Shown here: positions 41,831 to 53,934 of the stretch, one piece after another
How the letters are laid out: each line of letters opens with the position of its first letter
How positions within the stretch are numbered: position 1 is the first letter of the stretch
From: Clostridia bacterium
GTDB taxonomy: Bacteria; Bacillota; Clostridia; Oscillospirales; Acutalibacteraceae
Assembly (NCBI GenBank): GCA_017409475.1
Contig: JAFQSP010000008.1
Span: 115,650 to 169,583 of the forward strand
Direction: 5' to 3'
DNA length: 53,934 bases
The notes under the pieces: generated by a model
The model's database searches: none
The model's input: only the letters and a program-made list of their open reading frames with translations
Told to the model about the DNA's origin: nothing
Made by a program: the position numbers and the translations under genes

Positions 41831-43618
41831 CTATTTTGTTACAAGCCGGTGTGATGGAATTGGCAGACGTAGTGGACTCAAAATCCACCGCCAGCGATGG
41901 CGTGCCGGTTCGAGTCCGGCCACCGGCACCACTAAGCTCTCGAAGCTATATGCTTCGGGAGTTTTTCTTTGTTCGGTATCGACACCAACACCCCCGAAAA
42001 CGAACAGATTTCTATGAACCAATGCTTTTCGGGAGTTGTTCGACAATCGGTCACTATTGTTTTCTATTGATAATCTATCCCCGATAATCGTATGGTTATA
42101 ATCAAAATTCGCCGATTTTCCATCATCTGAAGTAAAGAAAAAGCTAACCTTGACGGTTAGCTCAATTTTATTATTATAAACAGTTATTCTTTCGATATAT
42201 TCTCTGAGTAGTAGTTTTGTTTTGTCTATGTGCTGTGGGTTTTGAAGCGCTTTCTTTAGTCTTGTGATTTTAGCCTTGACCTGTGCTTCAGTTACTGTTA
42301 GTTCGGTCTTTTTGCTCTCCTCTGTGGCTATGAGTGTTTCGTTTTCTGCTATCTGCTTTTCTATTGCTGTCAGCCTTTCAGAAAGTGCTTCATTGTAGCC
42401 GATTTTTGCTATAGAGTCAATGAGATTTCCTCTTGCCATCTTTAATCCTTGCAAAGCATTTTTGGCAAGTGTAACGCTCTCACTATCAATATAAAGAGTT
42501 TCCTTAATTTTATCATTGATTTGCTTTGTTATCTGCTCTATAACACCCTCACCAAAAAAGAATTTAATAAGATTGTCTATAACAAATTCTTCAAGTATAT
42601 CGGCACGAATTTCTCTGCTGTCACAAGTTAACTGATTCGCTTGTTTATTGCATTTATAAGTATTGTAGCCCCCCTCACCGTATTTCCTATGATTTCCGTG
42701 CATTTTACATCCACACTCTCCACAATATACAAGTCCTGATAATAAGTACGGAAACTTTGCGTTCGTGGAAGTTTTTGCGGTTAATTTTCTCGAAGCGTTA
42801 GCTCTTTCCCACAGTTCAGGCGATACTATGGCAGGAATAGCATTTTCAATGCGAATAATCTCACTTTCATCTTTATATTTATGCATATTACGCTTTCGTT
42901 TACTATTTCGTTTTGCGGCTTTGTTATAAGTATATACGCCTTTATATCTCTCATTTCTTAAAAGGTCATAACAAGAATTTTTACCAAATGTATTACCATT
43001 TCTTGTGCGGTATCCCTTTCGGTTTAGTTCTTGAATAATAGCATTATATCCATAACCATCAGCAGCCATTCGAAAAATCTCTCTTACGATTATAGCTTCA
43101 GTTTCTTCAATTTCATATCTACCATCAACAATTTTATAACCCAATGGTGCAGTACCACCATTAAATAGAGATTTATGTGCTCTTTCGCACATACCCTTCA
43201 TAACTTCCTTCGATAAAGCCTGAACATAACGCTGGTTAAGAAGAGCATTTAAACCTAATATAAAATCATCACCATTAAAATTCTCCTCTACAGAAACAAG
43301 TTCAATGTTGTTATCTGCAAAGCGTTGTTGATATTGAAATGTATCAACAACATTTCTTGAGAATCTGTCAAGCTTATGTACTATGACTGCTCTAAATTCA
43401 CAAGTCTTGTTTTCTATTGCATTCATCATTCTTTGGAAGTCAGGTCTATTAGTTGTTTGTCCCGAAAAAGCTCTGTCAATATACCAATCTATTATATCAT
43501 AACCGTTAGATTCGGCATATTTTTCTATTGCTCGTTGTTGAGCCTCAATGCTTAGTTCTTTTTGATGGTCGCTACTGAATCGACAATAGCCAACCGCTTT
43601 TATTTTATCAGTATACAT
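41831..43618 (-). CDS. Large serine recombinase (integrase of the element)
   Basis: 595 residues as integrated. The N-terminal resolvase domain has GYCRFSSDHQ with catalytic Ser15, then AFSGQTTNRPDFQRMM and VHKLDRFSRNV. A recombinase domain follows (~160-260), then a zinc ribbon (CGECGCKMHGNHRK and later CNKQANQLTC) and a coiled coil (~385-460). It should integrate and excise the surrounding element at tRNA-Leu. The frame has no stop inside the element: residues after ~563 are encoded by the att core and tRNA. In the predicted circle the frame would end after VVPVVHNQ at 570 residues. AAAGGAAA precedes the ATG. Confidence 0.93.
   Translation of the reverse strand: MYTDKIKAVGYCRFSSDHQKELSIEAQQRAIEKYAESNGYDIIDWYIDRAFSGQTTNRPDFQRMMNAIENKTCEFRAVIVHKLDRFSRNVVDTFQYQQRFADNNIELVSVEENFNGDDFILGLNALLNQRYVQALSKEVMKGMCERAHKSLFNGGTAPLGYKIVDGRYEIEETEAIIVREIFRMAADGYGYNAIIQELNRKGYRTRNGNTFGKNSCYDLLRNERYKGVYTYNKAAKRNSKRKRNMHKYKDESEIIRIENAIPAIVSPELWERANASRKLTAKTSTNAKFPYLLSGLVYCGECGCKMHGNHRKYGEGGYNTYKCNKQANQLTCDSREIRADILEEFVIDNLIKFFFGEGVIEQITKQINDKIKETLYIDSESVTLAKNALQGLKMARGNLIDSIAKIGYNEALSERLTAIEKQIAENETLIATEESKKTELTVTEAQVKAKITRLKKALQNPQHIDKTKLLLREYIERITVYNNKIELTVKVSFFFTSDDGKSANFDYNHTIIGDRLSIENNSDRLSNNSRKALVHRNLFVFGGVGVDTEQRKTPEAYSFESLVVPVAGLEPARHRWRWILSPLRLPIPSHRLVTK
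41845..41931 (+). tRNA. tRNA-Leu (CAA), integration target
   Basis: An 87-nt class II tRNA: acceptor GCCGGTG paired with CACCGGC, discriminator A, encoded CCA (41929-41931), anticodon CAA in the loop CTCAAAA, variable arm and T-arm GGTTCGAGTCC. Its last 12 bases are the attachment core repeated at 51672-51683. The integrated element keeps the tRNA intact by supplying identical 3' bases. Confidence 0.96.
41920..41931 (+). repeat. attL core (12-bp direct repeat)
   Basis: CCACCGGCACCA, the 3' end of tRNA-Leu. The same 12 bases are at 51672-51683; flanking bases differ on both sides. Confidence 0.85.
41934..41966 (+). terminator. Element-supplied terminator behind tRNA-Leu
   Basis: Stem 41937-41946 with 41952-41961 (one G-U), extended by three further pairs, followed by a T5 run. 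It sits in the element just after the att core, so it ends the tRNA transcript when the element is integrated. Confidence 0.7.
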
Positions 43619-43669
43619 AATTTAAATTTCCTTTCTGTAATATCAAAAAAATAATATATTTTTAAAATA

Positions 43670-43698
43670 GGGCTTGGTGCATTTATGTCACCAAGCCC
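43670..43698 (-). terminator. Terminator upstream of the recombinase
   Basis: A perfect 10-bp stem (43670-43679 with 43689-43698); on the minus strand a T-rich tail follows. It lies between the small 56-residue gene and the recombinase start, which suggests the recombinase has separate transcription control. Confidence 0.65.
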
Positions 43699-43711
43699 GT
43701 AGTTTTCTTCA

Positions 43712-43882
43712 TCATTTAATAAATAATTCTTGTGCTATATAGTCAGCCATTGGCTTTAAAAATTCGAGCCAATCATTATCGGCGATATCGCTTTGCTGTA
43801 AGCACTTTATTTCATCATTACAATAGTCAATATAAGGGCTTTTCCCTCTTTGTTTAGTTATTTGAATTTTTAAGAGTTGCAT
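43712..43882 (-). CDS. Small 56-residue protein of unknown function
   Basis: 56 residues starting MQLLKIQITKQRGKSPYIDY, with an AAGGTG-type ribosome binding site about 10 bases upstream. It is acidic at the C-terminus (DNDWLEFLKPMADYIAQELF). No family was recognised. It is too short for many gene callers but has a proper start, stop and position behind the 128-residue gene in the same direction. Confidence 0.55.
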   Translation of the reverse strand: MQLLKIQITKQRGKSPYIDYCNDEIKCLQQSDIADNDWLEFLKPMADYIAQELFIK

Positions 43883-44018
43883 TACAACTCAACACCTTTA
43901 TTGGTGTATAGTTCCGAGAAACTCGGAGTCGTAGAACGCAGTATCAGCGCACCTATTTTCTACAGTACCATAAAACGCATACATTAAGTACCGTCTTACT
44001 ACAAATACGATTTACAGT

Positions 44019-44405
44019 TTATTTGATTTTAACCGCTATTGTTTTTTCTTCACCTTCAACAATATCAATGTCCGTAAAAGTGAAGCAAGTTTGATTTTTA
44101 TAATCAAATTTATAATGTTCAAGGATTTCTTTAACCAATGGAGCACAGTAAATTACTTTACGCTTCGACATTGCTTTGAGTGGAAAACCCTCTTCTGTAG
44201 ATGTTATTAGCAAATACTCATCTGAATAACTAACATTAACATAATCGGGGTTATCTAACATATTAAGTACATTGTTAGAGAACTCAATACGTTTTCCACA
44301 CTTGTGATAAATAAAAGTTATGCCTCCATTTCCTGCTCCTCTTATAACTGGTTTAGCTACAGCTTTTGTAGCAACTATTGATTTTAAAATTTCACGCTTA
44401 ATCAT
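44019..44405 (-). CDS. Element protein of unknown function, 128 residues
   Basis: 128 residues, basic N-terminus, no signal or membrane helix. No family was recognised. Its ATG overlaps the end of the preceding 114-residue gene by 4 bases (ATGA), so the two are translationally coupled in the operon that starts with the DUF927 gene. Confidence 0.7.
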   Translation of the reverse strand: MIKREILKSIVATKAVAKPVIRGAGNGGITFIYHKCGKRIEFSNNVLNMLDNPDYVNVSYSDEYLLITSTEEGFPLKAMSKRKVIYCAPLVKEILEHYKFDYKNQTCFTFTDIDIVEGEEKTIAVKIK

Positions 44406-44746
44406 TCGAAAACAACCTCCTCAGATTCGTCAAATATTGGCTCTAATGAGCTGAATTTGGAATAAACTTTTCCATTTATTTCACGGTTGATTAGTGTAAA
44501 AGATATTCTTACATTAAGAAAATCTTCTGTATCTAATTCACCGTTTACATCAGCAAAATGCATTGCGAAATTATTAAGCAGATTACTTGCTAATGCAATG
44601 CTGATATTTAACTCTGAACTACGACCGTCTACAGCCACATTTAACCATAGATATTTATTGTCGCTACTAACACTTTGGTTAGTGATTTTACCCGTATAAT
44701 TTCCTTCGGGTAGGTTGTTTATTGTTTGTACAACCTGTATGCGCAT
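44402..44746 (-). CDS. Element protein of unknown function, 114 residues, possibly OB-fold
   Basis: 114 residues, mostly beta strands by pattern (EGNYTGKITNQSV; YLWLNVAVDG), suggesting a small OB-fold or beta-barrel, perhaps a nucleic-acid-binding accessory to the upstream ATPase. This is inference from sequence pattern only. AGGAAG precedes the ATG. Confidence 0.65.
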   Translation of the reverse strand: MRIQVVQTINNLPEGNYTGKITNQSVSSDNKYLWLNVAVDGRSSELNISIALASNLLNNFAMHFADVNGELDTEDFLNVRISFTLINREINGKVYSKFSSLEPIFDESEEVVFE

Positions 44747-44768
44747 ATTAACGCACTTCCTTTCTTTT

Positions 44769-46544
44769 TTAAAATTTTATATCAACATCATCAAAATTAT
44801 CGGATGATACTGATTCAAAAATAGATTGGTGCTTTGTTATGTGTTCGCTACTGCACATAGGCAGTTTAAATACATAACAATGCTGTAGTGGCAAGTCTTT
44901 TGATAACTTAACCCTTTTGTATGCTCTGTCTTTTTCGCAGAGCAGGATTTGTTTTTGTCGCCATTTCTCAACAAGGGTTTTTATACTCTCGTAACCATTT
45001 TTAGCAAGTAGAGCTTCGGCAACCGATTTTAGTATTGATATTTCAACAGAATTACTGCCTTTGATTATTTTGCCTTCCACACAAGATTCATAATCGCTAA
45101 TATTTGCTCTAATGAATTTGGAAGAATTACGACTGATATAATCCAAAATACAATCAAGAGCTTTATCTGCTATGTCAGTTTCCGTATTTATACGGTTTTC
45201 AAGTGTGTATATGTACTCCTTGATATGTTCTTCGCAAAATTCCAAGCCAAAGCAATCGTTGACATATATAGCTGTAAGATATACTACGGATAGCTTTTCG
45301 AGAATACGGTCGGTAAGCTCACCTTTACAACCTTTATACTCGGTTTTAAGCTTATCAACACAAATATTGTAATCTTCTATTATTCTATCAGGTGTATCAA
45401 TCATATAGCTAATAAAGTCATCATACAACAATCCATAATTATTTAAGACTGTTGTTTTGATAATATTGCTATGCTCTGCATTTAGCGTAAGTTCATCGGT
45501 AAGCTCGAAAATTCTTGCTCTTATACCATTTGGAGCTGAGCTATCGATTATACTATGTTCACTTGTAACGATAATCGCAGAATTGAACTCTGCCGTTTCC
45601 TTTAATTCGCCTGATGTGTTAAGCCTTTTTCGTTCTCTACCACTACAAATTTGATATAAGAGTTTGCGAGATTGTAGTGCTTCTGCTGTTCCTGCTTCAT
45701 CCAAAACAACGGTATGTCCGTTGCTTTGGGAAACAAAGTTTAGAACGGCATTAGAAGTACCGCTAAAGTTCGTAATAAGTCCTCTGTCAAATATTGGATT
45801 AGATGTTATAGAGGTCGAAAGCATTGCGGCAGTAGTTTTACCCTTGCTCGAAAGATTATTTAAAGCAAATATTAAGCATCCAAAATCAAAGTGTTTATTG
45901 AGATAAGCCAATATTATTGAACAAAAGCCAATAAGCCAAACAAATAGTAATGGTGTATATTGTAATACTTGCGATTTTATCATATCGAGATAGATTTCTT
46001 TAGAGCCTTTAGGATAGAAATCTATACCACCGATATACTTACTTGAAGTCTTAGATTCAGGAAAAGACTTTGATGACAGAAATAAATCCCCGTTCCAACC
46101 GAGTGTAGTATGTACTGTTTGTGTTTCTGCTTTATATGCTGACATCATCAAATATCTTTGTAACTCCTTTGCTTGTCGTTCATCATAAAGCACACCCATT
46201 TTCAACAACTCTTTTAGTCCAAGTGTCGTTAATACTTCTGCTTTAACATCAAAGTATATATATTCACCATTCAGCATCGCTTTGATTGTGTAACTTCTTT
46301 CATTGGTTACTATATCAATGTTACACTTTGATATTTCAAAGCGAGAAGCTATTGAAGCAATAAAATAGTATGTTTCATTATTCTTAGTTTTACTTAAAAT
46401 CATACATATCCAATTATCCATTACTACAAACGGAAACATATCGCCTGACTCTTCAGCATAGTAATCATATTCTTCCTTTGTTATACCACTACAACAAAAT
46501 GGTTTTACTTCAGTTTTTCGAATAGATTTAAGGTTGATTTTCAT
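44769..46544 (-). CDS. DUF927-type P-loop ATPase, putative replication helicase of the element
   Basis: 591 residues. The start at 46544 is set by a perfect AAGGAGGTGATAAAA-ATG arrangement; a longer frame upstream lacks one. The P-loop is LSSKGKTTAAML at about residue 245-255 and a Walker B-like TVVLDEAGTAEAL follows. DUF927 proteins are found in mobile elements and are related to replicative or packaging ATPases. The natural guess is element replication, not shown. A consensus promoter lies 60 bases upstream. Confidence 0.8.
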   Translation of the reverse strand: MKINLKSIRKTEVKPFCCSGITKEEYDYYAEESGDMFPFVVMDNWICMILSKTKNNETYYFIASIASRFEISKCNIDIVTNERSYTIKAMLNGEYIYFDVKAEVLTTLGLKELLKMGVLYDERQAKELQRYLMMSAYKAETQTVHTTLGWNGDLFLSSKSFPESKTSSKYIGGIDFYPKGSKEIYLDMIKSQVLQYTPLLFVWLIGFCSIILAYLNKHFDFGCLIFALNNLSSKGKTTAAMLSTSITSNPIFDRGLITNFSGTSNAVLNFVSQSNGHTVVLDEAGTAEALQSRKLLYQICSGRERKRLNTSGELKETAEFNSAIIVTSEHSIIDSSAPNGIRARIFELTDELTLNAEHSNIIKTTVLNNYGLLYDDFISYMIDTPDRIIEDYNICVDKLKTEYKGCKGELTDRILEKLSVVYLTAIYVNDCFGLEFCEEHIKEYIYTLENRINTETDIADKALDCILDYISRNSSKFIRANISDYESCVEGKIIKGSNSVEISILKSVAEALLAKNGYESIKTLVEKWRQKQILLCEKDRAYKRVKLSKDLPLQHCYVFKLPMCSSEHITKHQSIFESVSSDNFDDVDIKF

Positions 46545-46603
46545 TTTTATCACCTCCTTGCGAAATTTATATTGCAGTTTGTATTTTTCCGCCCTGCAAG
46601 TAT

Positions 46604-46632
46604 ATAATAACACACAATTTCGGTTATGTCAA
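46604..46632 (-). promoter_or_regulatory. Promoter of the DUF927 operon
   Basis: On the minus strand: TTGACA (46632-46627), a 17-base spacer and TATTAT (46609-46604), about 60 bases before the ATG. Confidence 0.7.
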
Positions 46633-46924
46633 ATTTGCTAAGTTTTAGTTGCGTAGGAAAAATCCATTTGTGCACTTTGCACAAACGAGAACTCACAAGC
46701 CAAACGATAAAGGCTTCTAATGTCTTCAATTTTTTCAGCAACAATCATTTGGCGCTAAGCACATTTAAGATGTTTTTGCGTTTTTTTAAAAATACAAGAT
46801 GGGTTGATGCCAAGATTGTTTGACCTAAACAGTTTTTAGATTTTGAAAATTAAAAATTTTTAAAAAATTTTTTGAAGACCAAAAATAAGACTTTTTTAAA
46901 CATTATGTCAAATTGCACAAATAC

Positions 46925-46950
46925 AAAAAAATAGCAGTCTTAACTGCTAT
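46925..46950 (-). terminator. Terminator of the DUF1643 gene
   Basis: A perfect 8-bp stem (46931-46938 with 46943-46950) and, on the minus strand, a T6 run. Confidence 0.7.
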
Positions 46951-47024
46951 CAAAAACCATCTTACGACAGTTTTTGAATTTTCATTTTGATAGCCAACTA
47001 AAATGCTTATTGTTGTTATAAGAA

Positions 47025-47519
47025 TTATATTATTGACTCAATCAACCAGTGCCGACAGCGAGGTGATAGAGGATGTGAGAAAGCCTGACCCGAGCTGTCA
47101 ATTATTGTGTGCAGTTTTTCAGGACAGGTCTTTTTGAGTGCTTCGAGCAACCGTTCTTTTTCTTCTGTGTGTGCAGTTCCTCTGCCGTATGCTACGATTA
47201 CCACATCAGCCTTGCCGCACTCCTCGAGCACAATAGAACTGTTTATTCGGTCTGTTTCGGGCTTTTTGTAGTCCAATCCACAAAAGACATTGACTATCGA
47301 AATGCCACCGAAATTTTGTGCAACAGCGTTGTTATAGCACAACATTGTGGTCTGGTCGGTCAGAAGCTCATCTGCTGTTGATGGTTGGCTCATTATTATA
47401 CACGCTTTAGGCTTCTTTTCATCCCATACGGATTCGAGTTTATAACGTTTCTTTCCATCTTTAGAAAAGATAGCACTTCTTGTAATATGACTTATTCTTT
47501 CAGTTAGATTATTATTCAT
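47025..47519 (-). CDS. DUF1643 family protein
   Basis: 164 residues. The family pattern is visible: ACIIMSQPSTADELLTDQT, ISIVNVFCGLDYKKP, VVIVAYGRGTAH and a C-terminal HPLSPRCRHW. DUF1643 proteins are scattered in mobile elements and phages and have no settled function. It starts 2 bases after the preceding 135-residue gene, so the two are likely coupled. Confidence 0.85.
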   Translation of the reverse strand: MNNNLTERISHITRSAIFSKDGKKRYKLESVWDEKKPKACIIMSQPSTADELLTDQTTMLCYNNAVAQNFGGISIVNVFCGLDYKKPETDRINSSIVLEECGKADVVIVAYGRGTAHTEEKERLLEALKKTCPEKLHTIIDSSGQAFSHPLSPRCRHWLIESII

Positions 47520-47521
47520 TT

Positions 47522-47929
47522 TTATTCCTCCAATGTTAAATACTTATTATTTATAAATCGTGCTTGTTCGAATATTGCTTGTTGTTCAGGTGATAAAATA
47601 TTTATAGGCAGCAATAGGTAGATAGCATAATCGGCAGATATGACAAAACACCCAAGAACGTATACAAAAAGTTCTTGGGTGTTTATTGATGATAGAAATA
47701 TTTTATCGGCAAATTCTATATTATCTGCCGATATTGGCTCACACATTTCAAAAGCTTTGTAATTTGTTATTTCTGCCTCATTTTCTAAAATGTATATGCT
47801 ACCGATATCCCTGATTGTATTGATTCCGTATAGCTCAAACAATTCTTTTAAATACTGTTTAACTATAATCTTTTCTTGCTGTGTTACACCGCTATTTTCA
47901 AGCGTTGCGAAGTCGGTAATTTTCTTCAT
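47522..47929 (-). CDS. Element protein of unknown function, 135 residues
   Basis: 135 residues, acidic, with a helical N-terminus (VTQQEKIIVKQYLKELFELY) and one hydrophobic stretch (LFVYVLGCFVISADYAIYLLL) at ~90-110 that may be a buried helix or membrane segment. No family recognised. GAGGTAG precedes the ATG, which directly follows the stop of the 39-residue peptide. Confidence 0.65.
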   Translation of the reverse strand: MKKITDFATLENSGVTQQEKIIVKQYLKELFELYGINTIRDIGSIYILENEAEITNYKAFEMCEPISADNIEFADKIFLSSINTQELFVYVLGCFVISADYAIYLLLPINILSPEQQAIFEQARFINNKYLTLEE

Positions 47930-48049
47930 TTATCTACCTCGTTTCCTTTTGTTTTTAGGTGTCTTAACTCCACAATAAAGTGATATTGCCGCCGTACACC
48001 CAGATATAAAGTATTCAGTTGCTATCTTCGAAACTAATGCAAAAAACAT
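47930..48049 (-). CDS. Tiny membrane peptide, 39 residues
   Basis: 39 residues: a hydrophobic half (FFALVSKIATEYFISGC) followed by a very basic tail (KTPKNKRKRGR). GAGG lies about 10 bases before the ATG. The TAA is immediately followed by the next ATG, and the preceding peptide gene ends one base upstream of its start region, so it belongs to a tight run of four genes. Confidence 0.5.
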   Translation of the reverse strand: MFFALVSKIATEYFISGCTAAISLYCGVKTPKNKRKRGR

Positions 48050-48050
48050 A

Positions 48051-48149
48051 TTAAAAAACCTCGCTTTCTTTTTGTCTGCTCAACAATAATTTATCAGCCG
48101 CTAATAACAGGGTAAATGTGGCAATAAAGCCACCGATGAAGTAATTCAT
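48051..48149 (-). CDS. Tiny membrane peptide, 32 residues
   Basis: 32 residues with one membrane segment starting MNYFIGGFIATFTLLLA and a charged tail. GAGGG is 4-5 bases before the ATG. It resembles the very small DUF3789-like peptides found in element and phage genomes, though the family is not certain. Confidence 0.5.
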   Translation of the reverse strand: MNYFIGGFIATFTLLLAADKLLLSRQKESEVF

Positions 48150-48186
48150 ATCATCCCTCACTTTCTATGTTTGTTTTATATAGAAA

Positions 48187-48217
48187 GCCCCATATCCGCA
48201 ATTAAGCAGATATGGGG
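48187..48217 (-). terminator. Terminator-like hairpin after the SHOCT gene
   Basis: 9-bp stem (48188-48196 with 48209-48217); the T-tail on the minus strand is short (CTTTCTATA). Confidence 0.5.
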
Positions 48218-48239
48218 TATCTTTAAAGAAACTTTATAT

Positions 48240-49490
48240 TTATAACTTTGCTAATAAATCAGCTTTTTTAGTTGCAAATTCTTCTTCGGTTATGACTCCT
48301 GCATCTTTAAGCTTTTGCAATTTTTCAAGTTGCTCCAATGGGTCAATTGCTTTCTCCGCTTGCTGAACTATAATAGGTTTCTTTGCTTCCTCACGAGCAA
48401 GTCGCTTATAAAGATTATAAATCTCAACAACTCTTTCTGCTTCGGTAGTACTTAATGTTTGAATTTTTAAGTTAGTTCCCGCAGTAAAAATTGTGAGGTC
48501 GCAAAGCTTTAAAGCGGCATTAAGTAAGGTTACTGTTAAGCTATCACTATTCGCTTGCTCGGTTGACATCGAAACAATATCTTCATAGTAAAACTTCTTA
48601 ACATTTTGTGCAACACCAAATACTTCTCTATCAAGCATTACAAATTGTCTTGTTGTACACATTAAGAAATCTTTTGCAGTAATGCTGTCTACACCCCAAG
48701 CAAAATATATGATAAGTTCATCTTCTTCCATATATTTTTTTGCTTCGTTGTATGCTTCATCACCAATTTTTTCGTGAATAAATTTATCTATTTCTTGTTC
48801 GGTAATTTCAAAGTCTGATTTTTCAAGACATTCGAAATAGTATTTAAGATTCACAAAATCTGTTTCTCTTAAACGAGCAGGTATACAGAAAAGCAGTTCA
48901 CCGTTACAAAGTATTTTATTTGTTTCGCCTTCAGTTTCAAAGCCTATAGATGTAATTTCGGCTAACGGAATTTTTATATTATAGAAAAATTGCGGATTAT
49001 CTTCTAATGCAATTCGTGCATATAAAAAATCAGTAGTAACCGTTAAATACTCTTTAGTTGTATTATTATCTAAAAGGAAAATAATTTGTTCGCTGTCGGG
49101 TAAATCTGCAAATCTTTTTAATACATCTCTGCGAGTAACCTTATCTTCGGTATAAGGCAACATTTTCAGTTTACTCACTTTAAGACTCGAAGCAGGTAAA
49201 ACAAGCTTTTTCATATATTCTTTAGTAAAAGCTAAAGTATCAGCCATTGAATTGATAGCAAAAATCCCTGTTTTTGTGGCATCTTTACCCGAAAGAATTT
49301 TGTCACATTTGATTTTGCTATTGGCTTCCGCTTCTTCTCGTGCTTTTCTTTCGGCTTCTTCTCGTGCTGCTGCTTCTGCGGCTCGTGCTTCTTTAGCGGC
49401 ATCCATTTTTGCTTTTGCTTGGTCTGCGGCATTTTTGGCAGTATCTTTTGCCGCCTTTGCGGCATCCTTTAAAGAATCTAAAAATCCCAT
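48240..49490 (-). CDS. SHOCT-domain protein with PH-like repeats
   Basis: 416 residues. Residues ~5-60 form an Ala/Lys/Glu-rich coiled coil (DSLKDAAKAAKDTAKNAADQ). Two beta-rich segments, ~130-230 and ~255-345, resemble bacterial PH (YokE-like) domains. The C-terminus is a SHOCT domain (EQLEKLQKLKDAGVITEEEF). No membrane segment. SHOCT/PH proteins are common in mobile elements and are thought to act in membrane- or protein-binding. AAAAGGAG precedes the ATG. Gene spacing links it to the two genes upstream. Confidence 0.78.
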   Translation of the reverse strand: MGFLDSLKDAAKAAKDTAKNAADQAKAKMDAAKEARAAEAAAREEAERKAREEAEANSKIKCDKILSGKDATKTGIFAINSMADTLAFTKEYMKKLVLPASSLKVSKLKMLPYTEDKVTRRDVLKRFADLPDSEQIIFLLDNNTTKEYLTVTTDFLYARIALEDNPQFFYNIKIPLAEITSIGFETEGETNKILCNGELLFCIPARLRETDFVNLKYYFECLEKSDFEITEQEIDKFIHEKIGDEAYNEAKKYMEEDELIIYFAWGVDSITAKDFLMCTTRQFVMLDREVFGVAQNVKKFYYEDIVSMSTEQANSDSLTVTLLNAALKLCDLTIFTAGTNLKIQTLSTTEAERVVEIYNLYKRLAREEAKKPIIVQQAEKAIDPLEQLEKLQKLKDAGVITEEEFATKKADLLAKL

Positions 49491-49505
49491 ATTTTACTCC
49501 TTTTG

Positions 49506-49799
49506 TTATGATAATAATGCATCAGTTAATTCGCCAACTTGTGCCCAATAAAATACACCTATTACAACTACTACTGCGAAAATTGTAACCAAACTTAAAG
49601 TGCGTTCTTTAGCGGCAACCTCTAAAAACTCTTTAGGTGTAAGGTTTTCTTTTTTATATGCCATAACCAAATCAACAATAGCTAATACAATGCTTAATAT
49701 GTATACAATTAAGCCAAAGGTTGAGTTGATAATCAACATAATCAATATTGAAGCAATAGTGCCAATTAATGAAAACAATCCTAAATTTTTCTTATCCAT
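49506..49799 (-). CDS. Small membrane protein, 97 residues
   Basis: 97 residues with three hydrophobic segments, the third at the C-terminal third, and a charged loop KKENLTPKEF. No family recognised. AAAGGAG precedes the ATG. Its stop is 15 bases before the SHOCT gene start, so the two are probably cotranscribed. Confidence 0.68.
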   Translation of the reverse strand: MDKKNLGLFSLIGTIASILIMLIINSTFGLIVYILSIVLAIVDLVMAYKKENLTPKEFLEVAAKERTLSLVTIFAVVVVIGVFYWAQVGELTDALLS

Positions 49800-49896
49800 T
49801 TTAAAGACTCCTTTTTATATGTTTATTTTTATTATTTTATCGGCTAAAATCCTACCCTCCTATCAATATTATCTGCCGATATAGATAATTAAATTA

Positions 49897-51015
49897 TTAG
49901 TGTATCTCGATACAAATAGCAGGTCTAACGCCAATAAAATCCATTTCAACGAAGTTACCGTCTAAATCAAAACGACCATCAGATAATACTTTCATTGCTG
50001 TTTCGTTTCCGTGGTCGCCAGGTGTTCTTAACCAATAGGATGAACCGCCATCCCGTCCGTACATCTGATATGGTGTTCTTTCGGCTGTTCTTGAAGCTTT
50101 ATTGCTGAGAAAAGTACTTATTTCTTCATAGCTCAAGCAGAATACTTTATCTTGAGTATCATTACCACCATCCGTTGTGTATTTTACATTTCTTCCACTT
50201 GTTTGTGCCGTAATTGTAGGTATTTTTTGCTGTTCACTCTTGGTAAAAGCATTATTAAGAAAATCGCTATTTAGCCATTTCCTTAATTCACAATTTTCCC
50301 AAGTTATTTTTACATCATCTGCATGATACGCTCTACGGTCAAGTATTTTATGTGATATAACTACAAGATAGTTGCCTTCTTTGGCTAAAACAAGCCACTC
50401 AATTTTTTCTTTGCCGTTATCTAAAATGTTATCTTGCTCATAATTTCCAAAATAAATGATATCTCCCACTTTTGCTTTTGAAATGGGTACAATGTAATCG
50501 GGTTCTGTCTCAACTGTAGTTCCGTTAGATTGTGTTTCGCTTGATACAGGAGGAGTATATGTATAGGTTTTAAGGGGTATTTTGTCATATATTTCTTTCG
50601 TAATTCTCTTTGCAGTAGAACCGTTTGATATTTTTAATTCAGTTCCATCAAAAACATAGTAAACTACAAATTGCCTATAAACTGAAATTTCGTATGTTGT
50701 AATGTTGTTATCACCCATTGAAACATTTATAGCATCAACATCACCATATCTGTAATCATATTCCTCGATTTTGGATTTTTCTTCATAATAATCCTTGCTT
50801 ATATACACATAGGCTTCATCGGTTTCGTAGTAACCGTATAAAGCATTTAGATAGTCTTCTCTTGTTTCAAGCTTTTGGGATGAAGATACTGAAACAGTAT
50901 CGTTTTTCTTCGAAGATGATGAACCGTCTATATTTTCATTGTTATCTTTACCACAACTGCATAAACACAGGATAATAGAAACGGCAACAATTATTGATAA
51001 TACTCTTATTTTCAT
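49897..51015 (-). CDS. DUF6273 lipoprotein
   Basis: 372 residues. Lipoprotein signal with lipobox CLCSC (Cys ~22), a Ser/Thr-rich linker (~25-50), a middle beta-rich region, and a C-terminal DUF6273 domain with AKVGDIIYFGNYEQDN, WLVLAKEGNYLVVIS, WENCELRKWLN and SYWLRTPGDHG. DUF6273 is common in Clostridia surface proteins and has no settled function. AAGGAGATT precedes the ATG. It is cargo of the element, not obviously needed for mobility. Confidence 0.85.
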   Translation of the reverse strand: MKIRVLSIIVAVSIILCLCSCGKDNNENIDGSSSSKKNDTVSVSSSQKLETREDYLNALYGYYETDEAYVYISKDYYEEKSKIEEYDYRYGDVDAINVSMGDNNITTYEISVYRQFVVYYVFDGTELKISNGSTAKRITKEIYDKIPLKTYTYTPPVSSETQSNGTTVETEPDYIVPISKAKVGDIIYFGNYEQDNILDNGKEKIEWLVLAKEGNYLVVISHKILDRRAYHADDVKITWENCELRKWLNSDFLNNAFTKSEQQKIPTITAQTSGRNVKYTTDGGNDTQDKVFCLSYEEISTFLSNKASRTAERTPYQMYGRDGGSSYWLRTPGDHGNETAMKVLSDGRFDLDGNFVEMDFIGVRPAICIEIH

Positions 51016-51031
51016 AGCTAATCTCCTTAAT

Positions 51032-51325
51032 TTATTCTTTGTCTATGTGTTCTTTAAGAATCTTACGAATCCACTTTTCTGTGTACCCGTATTTTGTAGC
51101 AAGTTCACGAACATTGTAGCCGTTATATTCCTCCACAATCTGCTTAACAATGAACTCTCTACTAAATAGTTCTACAGGGAAGAATATCTGAGTGCCTCGA
51201 TATTTTGAATGAATTTTAAGTACTGCATCAATACCGAGTAGTGCGGCAAGCTCACTATAAGCACCATTTAAATACTCACCCTTAATTTTAACTTTATCTA
51301 TGGTAGACATTGGAACACCTCGCAT
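51032..51325 (-). CDS. Mor-like transcription regulator
   Basis: 97 residues. AYSELAALLGIDAVLKIH and GTQIFFPVELFSREF are followed by a helix-turn-helix (NVRELATKYGYTEKWIRKIL). This matches the Mor activator family, which controls middle genes in phage Mu and is common in Firmicute elements. AAAGGAG supports the ATG at 51325, with one 15 bases downstream as alternative. Being at the head of the minus-strand genes, it probably controls the DUF6273-SHOCT cargo. Confidence 0.82.
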   Translation of the reverse strand: MRGVPMSTIDKVKIKGEYLNGAYSELAALLGIDAVLKIHSKYRGTQIFFPVELFSREFIVKQIVEEYNGYNVRELATKYGYTEKWIRKILKEHIDKE

Positions 51326-51671
51326 ATTAAAAACTCCTTTCTGTATTATAAATTATAGCGTTGGAACTGTGTAGCCGCACAGTTCACGGGAACTATTCCC
51401 CAAAAAGTTCCGCATTTTTCCAAAAAGAAAACCGCATCCATCCGAGAGGACGAACACGGTTTTTCTCTTGTGTGATTTGACAAAACGGTTTCTATTGTTT
51501 ATAATATGAAAGTGGTTTCCCAAAAATCCGCTTTTCCAAGAGAAAAGAGAATTTTGTAGAAGCCAATGCTATTTATAATATTTATATTGTAAATGATGAA
51601 TGAGCTGATTTTGGGGTTTGGATAGTGTATTAAGAAAGTATAACTTATTCGGGAGTTCTACTGGTTATGCA
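51326..51671. other. Right-end control region of the element
   Basis: 346 bp without a gene. It holds an 8-bp inverted repeat GAACTGTG-TAGCCG-CACAGTTC (51364-51385), a second GGAACT/AGTTCC pair (51389-51411), a large imperfect hairpin at ~51430-51466 and a consensus promoter on the plus strand. Confidence 0.55.
51477..51505 (+). promoter_or_regulatory. Outward-facing consensus promoter near the right att end
   Basis: TTGACA at 51477-51482, a 17-base spacer and TATAAT at 51500-51505; both hexamers are exact. It points toward the att core 166 bases away, and no plus-strand gene lies between. Confidence 0.7.
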
Positions 51672-51683
51672 CCACCGGCACCA
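51672..51683 (+). repeat. attR core (12-bp direct repeat)
   Basis: CCACCGGCACCA, identical to the tRNA-Leu 3' end at 41920-41931. Confidence 0.85.
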
Positions 51684-51690
51684 AAGCATT

Positions 51691-51736
51691 CAAACCCGAA
51701 CCTTTTACCAATCGGTGAAACGTTCGGGTTTGTTGT
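51691..51736 (+). terminator. Original tRNA-Leu terminator, now displaced
   Basis: 11-bp outer stem (51691-51701 with 51722-51732) and a further inner stem, followed by a T-rich tail. It starts 8 bases after the attR core, as expected for the tRNA terminator before integration. Confidence 0.7.
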
Positions 51737-51843
51737 TTTCTTAAAAGATGTTAAATAGCCTTTGTTTGTGGCAGTACAAAGTGTTTTGCTCTGTACTGCC
51801 ACTTCTTTGTTTCAATGGATTTCGTACATAAAGGAGATTTGAA

Positions 51844-52728
51844 ATGAAGACCACAAAAATAAGAATTATTTTCTTTGCTATTGTACTTACATATAATTTA
51901 ATATTGGGATTTTACTTGAGAGACTTTCTTGTTCTCTCTCCCACACTACACGTATTCTATCTATTATCAGTTTTACCATCATTATTTTTGATAGTTAAAA
52001 TAAATTCAAAAGTAATGAAATCAATGGTTTTTGTTTCTCTGATACTCATTGCTTGTATGAACGCTATTTATGCAATTTATTGTCGCAGAGTGTTTCCTTT
52101 TTTAGCACTTATTTCACTTGTTATTATTCTTATGTACTTTATCGCTTTTGCCGATAACAAAGGTAAAGATACTATATTGACGAAAATATTTGTGCTGGTG
52201 GTATTTTTTGTAATTTTATCACTACTATTATCAGCATAAATTTTCGTTTACAAACAGGATAATGTTTCACTTACGAATGGTCAGGCAACCTTATGGGATA
52301 CAAAGACTGTAGAACATGCTGACGAAATTTGTGCCGATTGCGATACTGATGAAGAAAAGATAAAAGCAATATATGAATGGATGATATTTAATTTTGAGTA
52401 TGATTATGATTGTAATCTGGTAATACAGTATTTCAATGTTCGTAAAACCTTAAGCAAACGAAAAGGAATTTGTTATGACTTTTCCCATCTGTTTGCCACG
52501 CTTTGTCGTAGTCAAAATATCCCCTGCTATGTAGTTGACGGTAATAAACGAGAAAATGTTCAGTATCACCATACCTGGAATAGAGTTTATTTTAATGATT
52601 CTTGGTGGAATATAGATGTAACTTTTGACACCATTCAAACTATTAATCGACAGTGCCTTTACGGACTCCGTAAAATTGATTGTGCATTTGTTACGGATGA
52701 AGAATTTTTCATAACGAAGATATATTAA
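51844..52728 (+). pseudogene. Membrane transglutaminase-like protein split by an in-frame TAA
   Basis: The N-terminal part (51844-52239, 131 residues, AAAGGAG before the ATG) has about five membrane helices and ends LSLLLSA-stop. The frame then runs open without shift from 52240 to 52728 and encodes IFVYKQDN, EEKIKAIYEWMIFNF and a complete transglutaminase triad: Cys in KGICYDFSH, His in YHHTWN and Asp in NIDVTFD. No start codon with a ribosome binding site is found between. It is therefore best read as one gene broken by a TAA at 52237-52239. Alternatives are a short membrane protein plus a separate peptidase fragment starting at 52381. Confidence 0.65.
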
Positions 52729-52737
52729 GAGCATTGT

Positions 52738-52763
52738 AAAAGCCGCCCGAGTGGGCGGCTTTT
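52738..52763. terminator. Bidirectional terminator
   Basis: A perfect 11-bp GC-rich stem (52738-52748 with 52753-52763) between the disrupted transglutaminase (+) and the XRE gene (-). Confidence 0.8.
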
Positions 52764-52764
52764 A

Positions 52765-53076
52765 CTACTTATTAGAGTTAATTGTGCGGATCATCTGCAT
52801 GACCACTTTCTTCTGTTCAGCTGTGAGGCTAACCCAAGAGTCAAAAAGTTCTTTAATTTCGGGTGTCATCTCAACCATATCTCCGTCTGCAAAGAATTGG
52901 GATATTGTAATGCCGAATCCGGCACAAATTGCTTCTAATGTGCTTATTGAAGGCAAAGTGTTTCGTCTAAAAATATTAGCAAGAGTAGATTCGGATAACC
53001 CGCATTCTTTTGACAAGCGATACTCAGTCCATCCACGTTCATCCAACAACTGACGAAGCCTCTTATGTGTATCCAT
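52765..53076 (-). CDS. XRE family transcription regulator
   Basis: 103 residues. A Cro/C1-type helix-turn-helix in the first ~60 residues (YRLSKECGLSESTLANIFRRNT, then SISTLEAICAGFGITISQFF) and a C-terminal helical tail. GGTGG precedes the ATG. It is divergent from the DUF1273/SLOG gene, and two similar 18-bp sites lie between them. Confidence 0.93.
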   Translation of the reverse strand: MDTHKRLRQLLDERGWTEYRLSKECGLSESTLANIFRRNTLPSISTLEAICAGFGITISQFFADGDMVEMTPEIKELFDSWVSLTAEQKKVVMQMIRTINSNK

Positions 53077-53105
53077 AGCCTCACCACCTTTCTTAATTAT
53101 ATTTT

Positions 53106-53168
53106 ACCGCTAAACTTAACGGTTTCATACCTAAGATTTATAATGTGTACACCGTTATGTTAAACTGT
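53106..53168. promoter_or_regulatory. Paired candidate XRE operators
   Basis: Two partial palindromes of 18 bases, 53106-53123 and 53151-53168, share the form ACCG-N10-CGGT/TGT and are 45 bases apart centre to centre. The segment 53113-53123 is an inverted copy of 53151-53161 in 10 of 11 positions. The second site lies just before a TATAAT at 53173-53178 for the plus-strand gene. Confidence 0.5.
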
Positions 53169-53192
53169 ATTATATAATTAAGTTGAGGGGTA

Positions 53193-53670
53193 ATGAGTGC
53201 TGTGTTAGAGAATATTTGTTGTTTTATCGGTCACAGAGAAATAAATGTGACTGATGAGTTAAAGGAAAAACTACATATGATAATCGAGCGCTTAATTACA
53301 GAAGAAAGTATGGATACTTTTCTTTTCGGTAGCAAAAGCCAATTTGATGATCTTTGCTATGATATAGTAACCGAAACAAAGAAAAATCACCCTCACATAA
53401 TAAAATTTTGTGAGGGCAGAATATCCGTATATTAATAAAAGCTATGAAGCATACCTTTTAGAAAGTTATGAGGCTACCTATTTTCCTAAAGCGGTGGAAG
53501 GTGCGGGTAAAGCAAGCTATGTAAAGCGAAACTGTGAGATGATAGATAATAGCTGTTTCTGCATTGTTTATTATAAAGAGGAGTATACTCCAAAAGGTAG
53601 AAAAAGCGGAACAAAAATAACCCTCGCTTATGCCGAGAAGAAAAAGAAAAGCATTATCAAATTTCCTTAA
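53193..53670 (+). pseudogene. DUF1273/SLOG-type protein with a one-base frameshift
   Basis: The first frame (53193-53435) carries ICCFIGHREINVTDELKEKL and DTFLFGSKSQFDDLCYDIV, the SLOG-like nucleotide-binding start. The second frame, shifted by one base, continues with RAEYPYINKSYEAYLLESYE and ends SGTKITLAYAEKKKK. Dropping one T from the AAAATTTTG at ~53402-53410 restores IIKFVRAEYPYI, as in intact family members. So it is a single ~158-residue gene with a probable slippage frameshift, or a sequencing error. GAGGGG precedes the ATG. Confidence 0.75.
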
Positions 53671-53722
53671 AATGTATTATGGCGAATTTGCCGTAGTTAT
53701 ATTAGAAAATGTGTCATATAAA

Positions 53723-53754
53723 AATGATCAGCACAATGATTTGTGTTGATCATT
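53723..53754 (-). terminator. Terminator of the rightmost gene
   Basis: 14-bp stem with one G-U (53723-53736 with 53741-53754), followed on the minus strand by a T5 run. Confidence 0.65.
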
Positions 53755-53769
53755 AAAGTGCTCGGCGTT

Positions 53770-53934
53770 TTAACCATCTTTTAATTCCTTGACCGTTCTT
53801 ATTTTATTAACCGGAGTTTCAACATAACGAAGCAAATCATCAAGTTTATCCGTTACATAATATAGTTCTTTACAATTATCACGAATAAAGTTTTTCTTCA
53901 TAGCCTGTTCCATTGCATAATTTATATCATCGTA
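53770..53934 (-). CDS. Partial protein of unknown function (C-terminus only)
   Basis: Open to the window edge; 54 residues are visible, ending KIRTVKELKDG. They are acidic and helical with YYVTDKLDDLLRYV. No family was recognised; the start lies outside the window. Confidence 0.5.
   Translation of the reverse strand, partial: YDDINYAMEQAMKKNFIRDNCKELYYVTDKLDDLLRYVETPVNKIRTVKELKDG

Follow-up and report, generated by a model that had tools for sequence, protein, structure and literature searches.

Mycobacteriophage BPs is said to show integration-dependent immunity, in which integration through attP alters a phage protein at its C terminus; the altered protein is reportedly the repressor, whose gene contains attP and which loses a degradation tag in the process. 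Among integrases, the serine integrases of streptococcal ICEs in rumA change length and C terminus upon integration (PMC4701971, in excerpt). For Mx8, which has a tyrosine integrase, the same excerpt cites the replacement of a 112-residue C terminus by 13 residues with lower activity; a myxophage review (PMC6070905, in excerpt) disagrees and states that integration alters specificity instead. According to the cited portion of the Islander paper of 2014 (PMC4383910), some integrases extend across attP, and no serine integrase was then known to use tRNA genes as targets. Serine recombinases are placed inside genes and tyrosine recombinases at gene ends by a review of mobilizable elements (PMC5704250, in excerpt). 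A large database of islands that lists serine integrases together with the sites they use is indicated in PMC12884075 (in excerpt). Our search of the open-licence literature found no reports of serine recombinases at tRNA or tmRNA 3′ ends.

An element at the 3′ end of tRNA-Leu(CAA)

We analyzed a stretch of 53,934 nucleotides, the window, belonging to genome G000. It contains a tRNA-Leu(CAA) gene (41845–41931, plus strand, from a tRNA call) with a CCA that is encoded in the sequence, and this gene is the target of a 9752-bp integrative element (41932–51683, one core included). Repeat search and junction analysis placed a 12-bp att core, CCACCGGCACCA, at the tRNA 3′ end (attL, 41920–41931, plus strand) and again at 51672–51683 (attR, plus strand), giving the arrangement expected of an element at a tRNA 3′ end, with the tRNA intact at one end and its 3′ end repeated at the other. 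The core has four copies in the whole genome, and its reversed control has none. The 9.75-kb island was most likely integrated by its own large serine recombinase.

Relatives show what else may stand at this site. In G094, from another genus of the same family, the right flank of the window lies directly after tRNA-Leu(CAA) (locus L042) with nothing between, and this flank may itself be accreted. In G052, of the same genus, a similar left end follows the orthologous tRNA-Leu on contig C41, and contig C16 carries an identical right arm and core, then a right flank unlike that of the window; we infer that C41 and C16 carry parts of a single element. The window element matches that of G052 in four stretches at 82–90%, and about 2.8 kb before the right end is unmatched. 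Other sequences stand after tRNA-Leu in G248 and G309, both of the same genus, and in G171 the tRNA-Leu was not found within the stretch examined. Because the sequences after tRNA-Leu differ among relatives, this is apparently a hotspot for insertion.

The same comparisons bear on the chance that the right-hand 12-bp repeat is a coincidental match, in which case the element would end elsewhere and a circular form predicted from it would be wrong. The repeat is short, and the circle was not observed: the right-arm/core pattern had no exact match in viral_contigs, and in 398 genomes of the family the right arm plus core, allowing up to two mismatches, gave two matches, both at known attR places. 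Against coincidence stand the identical arm and core in G052, the flank directly after tRNA-Leu in G094, and a candidate core of 12–16 bp starting exactly at the RNA 3′ end in 4 of 10 further elements (see below), and we regard a chance repeat as extremely improbable.

Among nine element proteins, the Pfam scan found DUF927 with a Cch-type helix-turn-helix, DUF1643, SHOCT, DUF6273, and a Mor-family regulator; four proteins had no match, and conjugation and capsid families were absent among the matches. The motif TTCGGGAGTT occurs near both ends of the element (42028–42037 and 51648–51657), and an L034-type element has GGCAGTTT near each of its two ends; the two motifs could be a recombinase-binding arm changing in step. 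The right flank (51684–53934) begins exactly past the core. In other genera (G094, G004, G075, and G027), its first part is found again immediately behind tRNA-Leu genes with three different anticodons, and its first 217 bases had no match in four genomes of the same genus; it may be an island accreted earlier, or what is left of one, that has a terminator of its own.

Two predicted ends of the recombinase

The recombinase frame runs from 43618 to 41831 on the minus strand and in its integrated form encodes 595 residues followed by a stop. The initial annotation had described the frame as stopless within the element, crossing the core into the antisense of tRNA-Leu and ending at 41831, and both the translation and the tRNA call bear this out: no stop occurs from the ATG to the end of the element, the element-borne part (41932–43618, minus strand) is open throughout, and the final 29 residues come from the antisense strand of the tRNA gene and of a few bases past it. 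Lacking a stop within the element, translation would cross the core into whatever lies beyond. When both element ends are joined via the core, as in the predicted circle, the frame ends in VPVVHNQ and TAG after 570 residues, which reproduces the length and ending that had been proposed. The last residues and the TAG of this form would be encoded by the right arm of the element (51658–51671, minus strand, from the predicted junction). The two forms have residues 1–566 in common, after which the integrated form, read from the sequence, continues for 29 residues ending in LVTK and the predicted circular form for four, VHNQ. The G052 element gives the same predicted pair, 595 residues integrated and 570 circular, the latter again ending in VHNQ.

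Matches above the cut-offs to PF00239, PF07508, and PF13408 place the Resolvase catalytic domain first, followed by the Recombinase and zinc-ribbon (Zn_ribbon_recom) domains, which together extend to residue 350. The match to the phrog_95 integrases (E 2.1e-118) reaches residue 493, and the best solved match is the integrase domain of TP901-1. By this domain order, as read from the sequence, the protein is a large serine recombinase, or serine integrase.

The DNA beneath the tail and its constraint

Just after tRNA-Leu, on the tRNA strand, the element supplies a terminator-like hairpin (41934–41964) with a U-run, together spanning 41934–41967 (plus strand; alignment, folds, and covariation), which is antisense to the recombinase frame and lies inside the element. 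Across five elements, 95.4% of cells were paired and 5 of 13 pairs had changed on both sides. Among 500 shuffles, none matched the covariation score, 1 matched the number of double-changed pairs, and 63 matched the number of further pair types, a test that overstates the signal because the hairpins stem from related sequences; shifting the partner by 1 to 3 columns lowered every measure. We also computed the best fold within 55 bases past the RNA gene for 24 recombinase loci, comprising the 17 read-through loci described below and L034, L072, L012, L004, L019, L079, and L011; for loci that stop before the RNA gene, the insertion site was assumed unless a core had been located. The fold reached −9.0 kcal/mol or lower in 23 of the 24 (no shuffle control), the exception being L086 at −3.0 kcal/mol, and was weak or untidy in L021 and L025. 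Read most simply, each element gives the RNA gene back its 3′ end and terminator, and the recombinase frame overlies both by chance. The DNA under the tail is accounted for by the tRNA and a covarying terminator-like hairpin, an indication that elements of this kind carry in a terminator for the RNA gene they enter.

A hairpin at this position could also end the recombinase mRNA ahead of the core, so that neither tail is made and the message has no stop codon. In G052 the recombinase strand, too, has a U-run after the hairpin, but in the window this strand has none and transcription should pass; a standing nonstop message would, moreover, presumably be costly. We consider this reading very unlikely.

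To describe constraint along the protein, we compared codons among the window, G052, and L033 only, whose proteins are 91% and 86% identical to that of the window. Over the three pairwise comparisons, dN/dS was 0.02–0.12 in residues 1–430 and 0.12–0.21 in residues 430–495, where synonymous changes are few. It was 0.36, 0.46, and 0.73 (the last value resting on four changes) in residues 495–530, which keep some constraint, and it rose to 1.39, 0.96, and 1.69 in residues 530–564. Changes by codon position numbered 22, 15, and 118; 43, 28, and 170; and 39, 24, and 137 in residues 1–494, and 6, 3, and 6; 5, 5, and 4; and 5, 6, and 8 in residues 530–562, where they are spread over the three positions (Fisher P = 0.0052, 0.0021, and 0.039, the three tests being mutually nonindependent). 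The frame is open across the tail in all three close sequences, as would also be seen with a selected tail. The chance of zero stops without selection is about 0.31 for residues 530–562 (24 variable sites, 4.7% of substitutions making a stop), and that of the frame staying open over residues 495–562 is about 0.10 (48 variable sites). A selected tail was considered and rejected, given the dN/dS of 0.96–1.69 in residues 530–564, the codon-position test, and the stops of L034 and L072 before the RNA gene (see below). Taken as an indirect test of a difference in activity between the 595- and 570-residue forms, constraint gave a negative answer.

Silent changes are scarce in residues 430–495 (42134–42331), with a dS of 0.13–0.22 vs. 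0.42–1.51 in residues 1–430, as though the sequences were kept alike by recombination or by some signal in the DNA close to the att site.

Related loci and comparison with known systems

We collected 48 recombinase loci by their similarity to the window protein, so that the shares given here are not rates for the family; two weak matches that gave no hit in a further search (L005 and L006) and L007, the same place as L032, were left out. The omitted L006 (G000:C5:41409-41528), a second place in the window's own genome, resembles residues 555–594 at 48% and is perhaps another tRNA-Leu read backwards. RNA genes were called with ARAGORN on all 48 loci and with Rfam on 26 of them. The frame enters an antisense RNA gene in 17 of the 48, a tRNA in seven (L003, which is the window, L022, L023, L025, L030, L032, and L033) and a tmRNA in 10 (L013, L018, L020, L021, L024, L073, L074, L080, L082, and L086); in L021 and L086 the contig ends inside the tmRNA, which was recognized via Rfam only. 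Five of the 17 frames stop no more than 21 bases into the RNA gene. Six other loci stop 76 to 232 bp ahead of an RNA gene, two have one at 408 and 554 bp (for L077, an early in-frame stop was used), and 23 have no nearby RNA gene, two of these running off their contigs. Tails resembling (G)NRTPVRK in L018, L020, L021, L024, L073, and L086 are antisense tmRNA and not protein domains.

Three further loci were examined for read-through next to tRNA-Leu. L034 (64% identity over the compared part) stops 76 bp and L072 (50%) 80 bp before the tRNA; the frame of L028 (56% over 190 residues) is cut by the end of the contig and is uninformative on this question. As L034 and L072 keep a stop within the element, read-through looks derived in the window lineage, a reading made without a tree.

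Besides the window and G052, we searched for right ends in 10 further elements and obtained a candidate attR in four (L024, L074, L023, and L072); the 12-bp candidates of L074 and L072 (E 0.083) depend on their exact placement at the RNA end. The other six (L073, L030, L020, L080, L025, and L022), several of them on contigs that end early, yielded no clean right end; the 13-bp match in L030 (E 0.021) was rejected, being one base off and overlapping an adjacent inverted copy. The likely right end of L034 lies on another contig (L066). Both ends are identified or likely for seven elements (window, G052, L024, L074, L023, L034, and L072); the C terminus is predicted to depend on the integration state in five of them and to be unchanged in two. 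Measured from where the BLAST match begins, the integrated and circular lengths are 564 and 552 or 546 for L024, 627 and 592 for L074, 485 and 507 for L023, and 534 in both states for L072. The two circular values of L024 come from two candidate right ends, perhaps in tandem, either of which gives a changed C terminus.

According to the initial annotation, the integration state decides the last ~30 residues and could thereby bias excision vs. integration or protein stability. The first part stands on the predicted junction, with 29 residues vs. four; the functional part is not supported, as the tail shows no protein-level constraint, L034 and L072 stop early, and the DNA beneath is otherwise explained. 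Nor are tRNA-derived residues kept whatever the site: among the 48 loci, such tails arise where the neighboring RNA gene supplies them. The state-dependent C terminus, as predicted from the junction, is real, and judging from sequence comparison the tail is most likely a passive by-product, without selected function, of having the att site next to the integrase gene. As a whole, we hold it highly probable that this is an island with its own integrase, a lost stop, and a passive state-dependent tail. The recombinase gene adjoins the attachment site, and the window lineage lacks a stop within the element, whereas L034 and L072, beside a tRNA-Leu, retain one; the stop would have been lost here rather than gained elsewhere. 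The integrated form would read the antisense tRNA (595 residues) and the circle, forming with exactly the predicted junction, the other element end (570 residues), and both proteins would be active with little or no difference.

The two forms might instead act as a passive switch, the integrated form with its basic 29-residue tail recombining less and so stabilizing integration, and the circular form of 570 residues carrying out integration. That both forms are predicted for the window and for G052, and that Mx8 and the rumA ICEs provide precedents (PMC4701971, in excerpt), speak for such a role; the unconstrained tail (dN/dS and codon-position test), the single predicted C terminus of L034 and L072 beside tRNA-Leu, and the mere four circular-specific residues speak against it, and we judge it unlikely. 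A broader version, in which a clade of large serine recombinases targeting tRNA and tmRNA 3′ ends has repeatedly lost the stop, leaving the C terminus to be set by the integration state, and, in some members, the circular tail marks the integrating form while the antisense tail damps recombination, seems to us rather improbable. With the tail read as passive, it may still have a small effect on recombination; the Mx8 integrase is an example of an enzyme altered in this way.

C termini of integrases in databases can be the antisense of a host tRNA or tmRNA and should not be taken as a feature of the protein. The loci also document large serine recombinases beside tRNA and tmRNA 3′ ends, targets that were unknown to the island survey of 2014 (PMC4383910, in the portion cited).

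Among the known systems, BPs-type immunity differs in that the attP-spanning gene of the window encodes a recombinase, not a repressor. Here the att site lies inside the integrase frame, and the C terminus is predicted to differ between states (595 vs. 570 residues) in two genomes. The rumA ICEs (PMC4701971, in excerpt) likewise combine a serine integrase with an att site within the integrase gene, but their target is a protein gene, rumA, with repeats of 2–21 bp, whereas the window element uses the 3′ end of tRNA-Leu and gains an antisense-tRNA tail. As in Mx8 (cited also in PMC4383910, in excerpt), attP lies within the integrase gene, which acquires a new 3′ end after integration; the Mx8 enzyme, for which changes of activity or specificity are reported, is a tyrosine integrase, and that of the window is a serine recombinase. 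Like the islands of the Islander type (PMC4383910, in excerpt), the element restores the 3′ end of the tDNA, differing from them by its serine integrase. The state-dependent integrase C terminus is thus already published for Mx8 and the rumA ICEs, to which the window adds a further case; the less documented part is the clade of serine recombinases at tRNA and tmRNA 3′ ends.
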